From contig OMZT01000071.1 in assembly GCA_900315615.1 (NCBI GenBank), forward strand, positions 1 to 36,937: 36,937 bases of DNA, written 5' to 3'. This document shows, piece after piece, positions 9,167 through 11,622 of this stretch. The position numbers were made by a program, and so were the translations under genes. Source of the DNA: an uncultured Veillonellaceae bacterium (lineage in GTDB: Bacteria > Bacillota > Negativicutes > Selenomonadales > Selenomonadaceae). Under the pieces are notes generated by a model. The model had not been told where the DNA came from. It was given only the letters and a program-made list of their open reading frames with translations, and made no database searches. Numbering within the stretch: the stretch's first letter is position 1; every line of letters starts with the position of its first letter.

Positions 9167-9895
9167 ATGCAAAAAAAATCAATGGGAACCGTAAAAATGG
9201 TCTCTGCAGTTCTTATCATTCTGTTGCTAGCAATAATTCACATAGCTAATCCGGATTTTTTCCCAGAGCTATGGCGTGTCCTCAAAAGCGGGGATCTGAT
9301 AGCAACTGCTGAATATATTGAGTCATTTGGCTCATGGGCAGTCTTCTTCAGCTTCTGGCTAGTATTATTCGTCAATATGCTAGGATTCCCACCTGCTATC
9401 ATCTTCTCTACGGCTAATACTCTTATATTCGGCATTGTACCAGGTATCATATTATCTGTAGTAGCAGAGACCGTAGGAGTCGTACTCTCCTTCCTGATAC
9501 TGCGTTTCTTTCTGCGTGACTCTGCGAAGAAAATCATCAGCAAACATTCCAGCTTAAAGAAAATAGATTCCTTCAGCGGGCGCAGTGGATTCATGGTTAT
9601 GCTCATCGCACGTACGGTTCCGTATTTCCCTTCTATAATGCTAAATGCGTTGGGAGCCATAAGCGCCATAAGCCTCTTTGACTACACATTGGCCTCTTTC
9701 GTAGGGAAGTTCCCATCTACAGCTATAGAAGCCATCATTGGGCATGATGCTGTTCTTCATAATGGCGACTACACACGCATTATTATCGTATGTATCATAG
9801 CTGTCATCCTCATAATCAGTGCCTGGATATTTGAACATCATATGGCAAAAAAAGCAGACGCATACAATAGAAGCACTGATACGACATCAGATTGA
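9167..9895 (+). CDS. TVP38/TMEM64 (VTT/DedA superfamily) membrane protein
   Basis: A 242-residue polytopic membrane protein. An N-terminal helix (about 11-28) is followed by a VTT/SNARE-associated domain: GSWAVFFSFWLVLFVNMLGFPPAIIFSTANTLIFG, the re-entrant-type GIILSVVAETVGVVLSFLILRFF segment, and ARTVPYFPSIMLNALGAIS near residue 145. A late helix (about 205-222) ends the protein. VTT proteins are linked to lipid scrambling and undecaprenyl-phosphate or phospholipid traffic; the substrate here is unknown. ATG at 9167 has GGAGG seven bases upstream. It is followed closely by a small unknown gene. Confidence 0.85.
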   Translation: MQKKSMGTVKMVSAVLIILLLAIIHIANPDFFPELWRVLKSGDLIATAEYIESFGSWAVFFSFWLVLFVNMLGFPPAIIFSTANTLIFGIVPGIILSVVAETVGVVLSFLILRFFLRDSAKKIISKHSSLKKIDSFSGRSGFMVMLIARTVPYFPSIMLNALGAISAISLFDYTLASFVGKFPSTAIEAIIGHDAVLHNGDYTRIIIVCIIAVILIISAWIFEHHMAKKADAYNRSTDTTSD

Positions 9896-9933
9896 ACGAT
9901 TCACTAATGATATTACGAAAGGTGTGCACGAGA

Positions 9934-10194
9934 TTGGTCTTACATGGCGCTGTGATCATAGAACAAGGAGTAACATTCGCTATCTTCTCGGTACGCGAAA
10001 GCGTTACGACATATACTGTACGCGCAACTCAGTTCCGCCGCGCTGTTGCTCCATATTTCCCGAATATGCCGATCATATTGATGAGTCAGGATAGATACGG
10101 CAAGCCACACTATAACGGGCGTAAGGATATCGTGGAGTTCCTGAAGACAATACGTGTCGATCAGATTCCATGGAAGAAATACCATATTTATTGA
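9934..10194 (+). CDS. Small protein of unknown function
   Basis: An approximately 86-residue soluble protein starting 38 bp after the VTT gene on the same strand. It carries the stretches GAVIIEQGVTFAIFSV, PYFPNMPIILMSQDRYGKP, YNGRKDIVEFL and IPWKKYHIY. Codon use resembles the neighbours and the sequence looks like a folded domain, so I take it as real; I do not recognise the family. The start is uncertain: TTG at 9934 has AAAGGTG about 9 nt upstream, while an in-frame ATG at 9907 and a TTG at 9892 lack a clear site. Its TGA overlaps the -35 of the next promoter. Confidence 0.55.
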   Translation: MVLHGAVIIEQGVTFAIFSVRESVTTYTVRATQFRRAVAPYFPNMPIILMSQDRYGKPHYNGRKDIVEFLKTIRVDQIPWKKYHIY

Positions 10195-10226
10195 CATAAG
10201 TGGCAGTATTTTGTATACAAAATACT
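10191..10226 (+). promoter_or_regulatory. Promoter with a GTATAC-centred palindromic operator
   Basis: TTGACA (10191-10196), a 17-nt spacer and TATACA (10214-10219) form a promoter. Its -10 lies inside a perfect 22-bp palindrome (10205-10226) whose core is TTTGTATACAAA and whose left arm is AGTATTTTG. The core fits the xGTxxACx pattern of FadR/GntR-type regulators, so a bound repressor would block this promoter. The hairpin has no T-run after it, so it is not a terminator. It would drive the downstream ncRNA unit. Confidence 0.55.
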
Positions 10227-10258
10227 GAAAAAACTTTAAAAAAATTTGTTTCAGAATC

Positions 10259-10287
10259 TTGCAAAGCGCATGAAGATATGCTATACT
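10259..10287 (+). promoter_or_regulatory. Second promoter for the ncRNA unit
   Basis: TTGCAA (10259-10264), an exact 17-nt spacer and TATACT (10282-10287). The start is predicted near 10294. No reading frame with a ribosome binding site follows within the next 600 nt. Confidence 0.65.
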
Positions 10288-10293
10288 ATAAGC

Positions 10294-10905
10294 GTAAAGA
10301 GGAGATAGATATACAAACCAGTGGAGTCCTGATGGGAAGCAGCTGGGATGGATGTCAGCCGAGAGGCTCTCTTCAAACGCTACAGAAAGGATGTGGGGGT
10401 TATTGAAGATTAGTTTTGATATCCTTCGCTCCAACAGATCTGACTAGCAAGTGCACAGTTGAAGAAAGAGATTCGGCACGCAAGTGGGATTCCGTAGAAG
10501 GGATGGTTCCGTTTGTAAGCTGGATACATGAAAAGTGATGTCGCACAACGTCAGAGATGGAGAGTTGGATTCGAAGTATCATTTGGATCAGAATCCTGTG
10601 ATTGCAATCCTACGTAACACAAAGACAGATACTCAAGATGAGGGTCCGGACATAGGCGTGAAAGTGCCGGCAAGGTTTCAATTCTCAAGCTTCGACGGGA
10701 GATTGGGATGGGCGCCTGGAACGACCGAACGTTGTTGGTTATGATGTGATATCATGACAGTTCAGCTGGACAGTTTATTGCATAGAGCCTTTCTCGAGTG
10801 GGCACTGTGCCAACAACAAAATATAGGTATTAGGTTTTGGACTTAGTTAAGAACGAATGAACCGCCAGGCATGTGTATAGTGTCTGGCGGTTCGCTTTGT
10901 CTTTA
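10294..10905 (+). ncRNA. Large structured non-coding RNA candidate (about 610 nt)
   Basis: The stretch runs from a good promoter to a strong terminator and has no credible gene: open frames are short and lack ribosome binding sites. It is purine-rich in unpaired parts and has many possible helices: AAACC (10315-10319) with GGTTT (10833-10837) joining the ends; AGCC-GAGA-GGCT (10357-10368), a GNRA-type hairpin; AAGGAT (10387-10392) with ATCCTT (10421-10426); GATGT (10537-10541) with ACGTC (10548-10552); GTTGTTGG (10731-10738) with CCAACAAC (10810-10817), enclosing ATGAT/ATCAT (10741-10754). A self-complementary GGCGCC lies at 10711-10716. Size and make-up recall the OLE, ROOL and GOLLD classes, but I cannot assign it to one. 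It is not a recognisable RNase P RNA, tmRNA, 6S or group II intron. Confidence 0.65.
10859..10905 (+). terminator. Intrinsic terminator of the ncRNA unit
   Basis: GAACCGCCAG (10859-10868) pairs perfectly with CTGGCGGTTC (10884-10893), 10 bp, followed by GCTTTGTCTTT. The minus strand has no T-run after this hairpin, so it acts on the plus strand. Confidence 0.85.
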
Positions 10906-10956: not shown

Positions 10957-11622
10957 TCAATGATCCTCATAGGGACGCACACGCAGCGTAAGCCCTCTTG
11001 ACTCACATATCGCACGGCACTTTTCTATCTCGTCTTCTCCCTCGACATGATCGACGATCGTGAGCACAACATTTGGTACATATTTCTTCATATTCTGTGC
11101 GAAGCTGAGCATCGCTTCATATGACTTAATGCCGAAACGACTGCGAGTAAGCTCCAAATAACGTTCAGCATTTGATGCATTCAGGCTGATGGATACAGTG
11201 TCAAGTATATCCCCATCAAAATCAGGAGATGTATCGCGTCCATATGAAAGGTCTGAAAGCCCATTTGTATTTAGACGTGTCGCAACATCTGGATGCATGG
11301 TCTTTACATACCTAAGTAAATCCGTCAATACATCAAGACGTTCTGTCGGTTCACCAAACCCACAGAAAACAACCTCTTTTATATACTCCCATGGTGCGCC
11401 GTCAAGCGCCGCCTTCACCTCTGCAGAGGATGGCTCCTTCCTCAGCCAAAGGGTTACAGAATCGTCCATCTTCTTCATGTTTCTCAGACAGAACGTACAT
11501 GAACACGTACACCTGTTGGTGATATTCACATATAGATTTCTCTTTCCGAGCTTTGGATGCCTTCTGATATGTTCTTCTGGTGTGATATATTCTCCGCCTT
11601 TATCAACCATGTAAACGATCAT
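10957..11622 (-). CDS. Radical SAM protein, TatD-associated type
   Basis: A 221-residue radical SAM protein. The cluster motif CxxxCxxC is C38, C42, C45 within NITNRCTCSCTFCLRN; FCGFGEPTERLD is the GGE-like SAM-binding element and TRLNTNGL and VSISLNAS are the next conserved strands. NLYVNITNRC and the LWLRKEPS block after the cluster match the small radical SAM family that often sits next to TatD nucleases, though no tatD gene is here. Substrate unknown. ATG at 11622 follows AAGGGGGA. It begins 11 bp after the kinase gene and is the last gene of the nhaC operon. A short palindrome covers its stop; no terminator is evident. Confidence 0.82.
   Translation of the reverse strand: MIVYMVDKGGEYITPEEHIRRHPKLGKRNLYVNITNRCTCSCTFCLRNMKKMDDSVTLWLRKEPSSAEVKAALDGAPWEYIKEVVFCGFGEPTERLDVLTDLLRYVKTMHPDVATRLNTNGLSDLSYGRDTSPDFDGDILDTVSISLNASNAERYLELTRSRFGIKSYEAMLSFAQNMKKYVPNVVLTIVDHVEGEDEIEKCRAICESRGLTLRVRPYEDH

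Follow-up and report, generated by a model that had tools for sequence, protein, structure and literature searches.

A candidate new class of large structured RNA in the Selenomonadaceae, with self-complementary loops and a conserved 3′ minigene

The stretch of DNA analyzed here, referred to throughout as the window, is a contig of 36,937 nucleotides (nts) from an uncultured bacterium of the family Selenomonadaceae. Between a VTT gene and a convergent gene for a TatD-associated radical SAM protein lies a transcription unit whose RNA is about 610 nts long (Table 1). The promoter given in the preliminary description, TTGCAA-N17-TATACT, is present as described. Taken by itself the motif is not above chance, as a scan of the window returned two matches versus 3.9 expected; it is accepted as real because the homologues share it, a promoter of the TTGCAAT-N17-TATAAT type occurring at the equivalent place in nearly all of them, in the first 24 loci and then in the divergent copies. 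An intrinsic terminator follows ~340 to 690 nts downstream of the promoter in the homologues, whose RNAs measure 339–693 nts. In the window copy, the terminator sits where it was first placed, but its stem comprises 14–15 pairs rather than 10. The RNA as a whole folds better than its shuffles (z = −5.1; 0 of 20 shuffles), and this, together with covariation among homologues in both helix P1 and the core domain, upholds the original proposal of a large structured RNA. No credible long open reading frame (ORF) across the RNA was found in the ORF listing of the window. The earlier view of the transcript as devoid of any credible frame is correct to that extent, but it overlooked a short ORF at the 3′ end, which the homologues conserve as a five-codon minigene. 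An mRNA for a small protein was considered and rejected: there is no long ORF, insertions and deletions in the homologue alignment are not multiples of three, and base-pair changes are compensatory.

Table 1. Features of the RNA locus (window coordinates)
Feature	Position	Strand	Remarks
Promoter	10259–10287	+	−35 TTGCAA 10259–10264, 17-nt spacer, −10 TATACT 10282–10287
RNA	10294–10905	+	5′ end placed at about 10294 from the promoter; 3′ end within the terminator tail
Helix P1, 5′ strand	10299–10304	+	GAGGAG, pairs with 10369–10374
Conserved hairpin stacked on P1	10357–10368	+	AGCC-GAGA-GGCT
Helix P1, 3′ strand	10369–10374	+	CTCTTC
Conserved block GAAAGGATGTG...TTATTGAAGA	10385–10409	+	Near-invariant columns in alignment A1
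Core domain	10436–10561	+	Closing helices 10440–10444/10550–10554 and 10451–10454/10543–10546 around an internal loop
Hairpin A	10759–10772	+	Loop CAGCTG 10763–10768, self-complementary
Hairpin B	10787–10803	+	Loop CTCGAG 10793–10798, self-complementary
Shine–Dalgarno-like stretch AGGTATTAGG	10825–10834	+	Aligned with GAAGGA/GAGG of homologues
Mini-ORF	10837–10860	+	TTG GAC TTA GTT AAG AAC GAA TGA; seven codons in the window copy
Intrinsic terminator	10858–10894	+	Stem of 14–15 pairs; mini-ORF stop codon at its base
TatD-associated radical SAM protein gene	10957–11622	−	Convergent neighbor, outside the RNA; found in the equivalent place in many homologous loci

Several features of the upstream region deserve mention in their own right. 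Within the promoter spacer, after TTGCAAT, many homologues often carry a CTGA at a fixed place (e.g., positions 1484–1512 of locus L010), which suggests a factor-binding site or a special promoter element. In the window, a perfect 24-bp palindrome, CAGTATTTTGTATACAAAATACTG (10204–10227), is situated ~30 bp upstream of the −35 box and could be an operator; it was not seen upstream of those homologues that were inspected. The interval separating the RNA from the VTT gene also contains a 100-amino acid ORF with a TTG start (9892–10194), which has no Pfam or NCBIfam match and is possibly not a genuine gene.

Homologues show that the RNA is one of a family. BLASTN located homologues in 24 of the 189 genomes of the window's family, and a DNA pattern search in named genomes returned Selenomonas, Mitsuokella, and Megamonas, all of them Selenomonadaceae. 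A covariance model (R1) built on the 190 positions at the 5′ end of the RNA matched 56 of the 189 genomes, two of them marginally (E 0.004–0.009), spread over 16 of 30 genera. The copy number by R1 is one per genome, with the exception of a single lower-quality metagenome-assembled genome (MAG) that has two. A second model, R2, built on the core domain, agreed with R1 in matching 51 genomes of the family, and matches the window copy with 59 bits (E = 7e-12). Outside the Selenomonadaceae, R1 had no match in 380 genomes of the class; two weak R2 matches in this set (genomes G034 and G250) were rejected as homologues, both reading as coding DNA, and R2 added nothing new in 398 genomes of the phylum. 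Among the genomes searched, the family as defined by these models is confined to the Selenomonadaceae, rumen and gut bacteria included.

The downstream neighbor of the RNA is usually the convergent radical SAM gene, and the upstream genes differ between loci. In some genera both flanks differ, featuring YqeB-like protein and rpsB, flagellin, or DhaL-like and FtsW-like proteins (neighbors beyond the window were named by inspection). Since the flanking genes vary between genera, the RNA behaves as an independent gene, and action in trans is favored. A constant co-directional downstream gene, as would mark a cis-regulatory leader or riboswitch, was not found in the homologous loci. BLASTN and pattern scans of phage and plasmid collections gave chance 16-mers only and no convincing structural match, and a phage or plasmid origin was rejected because these collections yielded no true homologue. 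In genera without a model match, a synteny search beside the radical SAM gene indicated that most have no RNA there. Several loci merit separate record. L137 (genome G012, ~1783–2150) holds a short degenerate candidate with a promoter, a GTAAAAAGAGGAGG start, a TCGCGA hairpin, GAGG, and a terminator, without the core domain; it is possibly a decayed or minimal relative. L116 (G007) contains a candidate copy, A+T-rich and strongly diverged, in which a CTTAAG loop persists; its mini-ORF resembles that of the window in starting with TTG, running to seven codons, and ending in TGA. L140 (G027; 2401 bases), from a genome outside the family, bears CRISPR-like direct repeats (GTTTCAGTCCCCTTACGGGGATTTTGGTA) beside its radical SAM gene.

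The 5′ portion of the RNA is organized by helix P1, which joins the 5′ end (GAGGAGA) to a TCTCTTC located just 3′ of a conserved GCC-GAAACA-GGC hairpin. With the 5′ end so engaged, the end-to-end pairing of the preliminary description is unsupported. P1 is present in nearly all homologues, and its two strands change in step between lineages, as in the compensatory variants GGAAGGG/CCCTTCC, AAGAGAAAAG/CTTTTCTCTT, AAGAACC/GGTTCTT, and GAGGAG/CTCCTC. The arm that P1 encloses can vary in size: in the 679-nt copy of a Mitsuokella MAG (L038, 2677–3355) it is ~100 nts larger with P1 kept, and L111 carries a different large insertion located after P1. The conserved GACAAATGAATA block contains an upstream AUG, which was considered and rejected because its frame is not constant among homologues. 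An 8-bp long-range helix noted earlier (10731–10738 with 10810–10817) does exist as sequence, but its 5′ strand falls within an insertion of the window copy and is unconserved.

The core domain, of ~130 nts, extends from CTGACTAGCAAGTGC to GCACAACGTCAG and comprises 29 modelled pairs. In an alignment made from sequence only, 21 of these 29 pairs exhibit double changes, amounting to 90 doubly changed cells versus 29 ± 4.6 after shuffling and 18–34 with the partners slid. In a model-guided alignment of 52 copies, which is biased towards the structure, 24 of the 29 pairs show compensatory change, 91.9% of cells are paired, and 184 cells are doubly changed versus 48 ± 6 (shuffled) and 28–43 (slid). 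Against a tree-based null, 8 of the 29 reach E < 0.05 in the model alignment when structural pairs only are tested, and a single pair passes correction (E = 0.01) when all pairs are. The same all-pairs analysis of the unrefined sequence-only alignment, which is underpowered, is nearly flat, with a best E of 0.92. Loci L106–L108, left out of R2 training, nonetheless match R2 at E = 2e-10 or better. By this comparative evidence the closing helices are established and the remaining pairs strongly supported. In the window copy itself, the closing helices are perfect, whereas the inner arm is a poor fit to the consensus alignment and its fold departs from it in detail.

At its 3′ end, the RNA bears the hallmarks of a minigene. 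In nearly every homologue, GAAGGA, GAGG, or a similar stretch precedes an ATG and four further codons, with the stop codon positioned at the foot of the terminator stem. Counting the ATG as the first, exactly five codons are found in 47 of 55 copies, one of which (L096) has an additional upstream in-frame ATG that would extend it to eight. The other eight copies have ATG with six codons (three copies), TTG with seven (two, including the window), ATG with two (one), or no minigene (two); the regular minigene is missing in L105, L107 (two codons), and L115 (none). Stops are TAA in 42 cases, TAG in 6, and TGA in 5. Of 28 distinct lineages, 21 have the in-frame stop at +15, three have it at +18, and one at +24, over a 3% background of out-of-frame stop triplets (nominal P ~1e-26, relatedness not being fully corrected for). 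Because the stop contexts include TAACGACCC, TAGCCGG, and TAACCGG, the stop is not simply a product of the terminator A-tract. All 50 copies examined are predicted to pair with the anti-Shine–Dalgarno sequence at energies between −4.6 and −7.2 kcal/mol, the median being −6.0 versus a background median of −2.7.

The encoded peptides are unrelated to one another: MVINK, MNIHK, MVSTV, MANQK, MSITS/MSITT, and MLLTQ. As the peptides are unconserved, the conserved property is that a ribosome would start and stop within 18 nts, beside a stable hairpin. One might suppose that the pentapeptide is itself the product, a signal or an inhibitor, and the rest of the RNA its regulatory 5′ leader; this would account for a genuine Shine–Dalgarno sequence and ORF and for the conserved length of five codons, yet the variation in peptide sequence makes it a very improbable reading. 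The position of the stop codon raises a different proposal, being the geometry expected of a translation-coupled terminator, in which ribosomes on the mini-ORF would block the terminator, cause read-through, and make the RNA a cis-acting leader. The downstream genes, however, are mostly the convergent radical SAM gene and otherwise variable, a promoter-like sequence intervenes between terminator and gene where rpsB follows, and a leader of 600 nts would be unusual; we judge this mechanism improbable. Somewhat less so, though still unlikely in our estimation, is that the Shine–Dalgarno sequence and AUG are a remnant or a ribosome-protection device, docking not being the function and the stop merely preventing non-stop stalling. 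A terminal ribosome could indeed shield the 3′ end, and both the unconserved peptides and the copies with two codons only or none (L107 and L115) would be at home in such a scheme. It sits poorly, however, with the retention of Shine–Dalgarno sequence, AUG, and stop in many lineages at nearly fixed length, and five codons are unnecessary for protection alone. The reading preferred here is that the minigene is likely used by ribosomes in earnest, and that what matters is probably the act of translation, initiation plus termination, and not the peptide. A ribosome at the mini-AUG would cover roughly the distance to the terminator stem, a design that would fit ribosome docking.

Upstream of the minigene, most copies carry two hairpins, A and B, whose loops are self-complementary. 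The loop of hairpin A is CAGCTG in most long forms and elsewhere TAGCTA, TCGCGA, TCTAGA, or CGATCG, five palindromes in all; that of hairpin B is CTCGAG in most and elsewhere CTTAAG or TCGCGA, three in all. Among 23 distinct long forms, perfect palindromes are found in 20 at loop A and 21 at loop B, where shuffling the second half of the hexamer among sequences predicts 5.6 and 6.6, respectively (the hexamers were assigned by hand, and relatedness is not fully corrected for). Within Selenomonas alone, loop A switches between CAGCTG and TAGCTA, which constitutes a double change. The stem of hairpin A is weak in the window copy. Dimer contacts had been suggested earlier through a self-complementary GGCGCC (10711–10716), which has no conserved counterpart; the idea is better placed on loops A and B. 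As these two loops are not complementary to each other, the straightforward interpretation is that each kisses its counterpart on another molecule of the same RNA, which would likely form homodimers or higher homo-oligomers via palindromic kissing loops. Two distinct two-fold contacts per chain would permit rings, chains, or cages. The A/B domain is absent from seven reduced copies (L106–L108 and L112–L115) of ~340–380 nts, which retain the core and, in most cases, the minigene. Their loss of the palindromic hairpins indicates that oligomerization is not essential to the core function, and suggests that core and minigene form the indispensable unit upon which oligomerization is an elaboration.

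Few bacterial RNA classes exceed 400 nts, and most of these are without known function. The preliminary description proposed two alternatives, divergent membership of a rare class or a class of its own; the first is unsupported. Rfam gave no match in the window at the gathering threshold, and a search relaxed to E = 10 turned up nothing of relevance there. In 24 homologous loci no family matched over the RNA at E up to 1, and matches fell on unrelated stretches (a tRNA elsewhere in L115 and below-threshold matches elsewhere in L006). The OLE model specifically had no match in the window (E up to 10) or the homologues (E up to 1), nor did the ROOL, GOLLD, HEARO, or raiA models in the window or the 24 loci. 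ROOL and GOLLD are encoded by phages or prophages, frequently close to tRNA islands. The Selenomonadaceae RNA, in contrast, is chromosomal, with housekeeping neighbors, no tRNA in the window by ARAGORN, and no homologue in the phage and plasmid collections searched. A role as replacement tmRNA, RNase P, or 6S RNA was rejected, since the canonical genes for all three were found elsewhere in the same genome; in addition, no tRNA-like domain or tmRNA was detected in the window by ARAGORN or the Rfam model, and the RNase P and 6S models had no match over the RNA. Like tmRNA, the RNA is structured and has a very short reading frame of its own, but this frame opens with AUG behind a Shine–Dalgarno sequence and occupies the 3′ end, just ahead of the terminator.

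Resemblance to known large RNAs lies in size and predicted self-association. OLE is ~600 nts long, occurs mostly in anaerobic or extremophilic Bacillota, and homodimerizes via RNA–RNA contacts that include a kissing loop, while the large, ornate ROOL and GOLLD RNAs form homo-oligomers through kissing loops (PMC12286853). Ribosomal protein bS21 is a reported component of the OLE complex (PMC12054373), and GOLLD reportedly binds ribosomes in pull-downs (PMC12286853). In the axe-txe operon, a minigene comprising a very short ORF with a Shine–Dalgarno sequence loads ribosomes (PMC8708949). Such translated minigenes reside in mRNAs and act in cis, whereas that of the Selenomonadaceae is the 3′ element of a large structured RNA. 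These likenesses in size and self-association are what a divergent member of OLE, ROOL, GOLLD, HEARO, raiA, tmRNA, RNase P, or 6S would offer in its favor (PMC12286853); given the absence of any family match over the RNA and the separate location of the last three in the genome, we regard that option as highly improbable. From OLE, the RNA differs further in its minigene and host range. OLE is not known to carry a minigene, no translated minigene is known to us as a constant 3′ part of a large structured RNA, and no described class known to us combines a conserved fold, self-matching loops, and a terminal five-codon minigene. No description of the RNA was found in the literature searched, in which subscription journals were covered only in part; genome-wide searches report other motifs of the Negativicutes (gltD and ldh2 among them).

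By comparison of its homologues, then, the RNA has its own promoter and terminator, helix P1, a covarying core, and a 3′ Shine–Dalgarno–AUG–stop unit, with palindromic-loop hairpins in most copies. We consider it reasonably probable, with due reserve, that it is a trans-acting large RNA of a new class, one that uses its 3′ minigene to dock ribosomes and usually self-assembles. It would likely behave as OLE, ROOL, and GOLLD do in joining with its own kind, and its minigene would likely be retained for the initiation and termination it imposes on ribosomes. Should both hold, then as a working hypothesis each chain would dock one ribosome at its 3′ end, and the structured domains would do their work attached to the translation machinery, perhaps serving as a multivalent decoy for ribosomes or initiation factors or sensing the capacity for initiation or termination. 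It is the minigene, and no other part of the RNA, that points to the ribosome. More tentatively, and with clear doubt on our part, one may envisage a homo-oligomeric RNA scaffold (a ring, chain, or cage) with a five-codon minigene on each chain, gathering several initiating or terminating ribosomes into an RNA-only ribosome-docking particle.

Self-association of large RNAs is already known; the novelty lies in the RNA class and in the combination of its parts. Limited to one cultured bacterial family, the class would add to the few bacterial RNA classes above 400 nts. Its palindromicity, maintained through compensatory change, furnishes a clean prediction of self-assembly, its nearly fixed-length 3′ minigene is a direct pointer to the ribosome, and its naturally reduced forms offer a built-in dissection of function.
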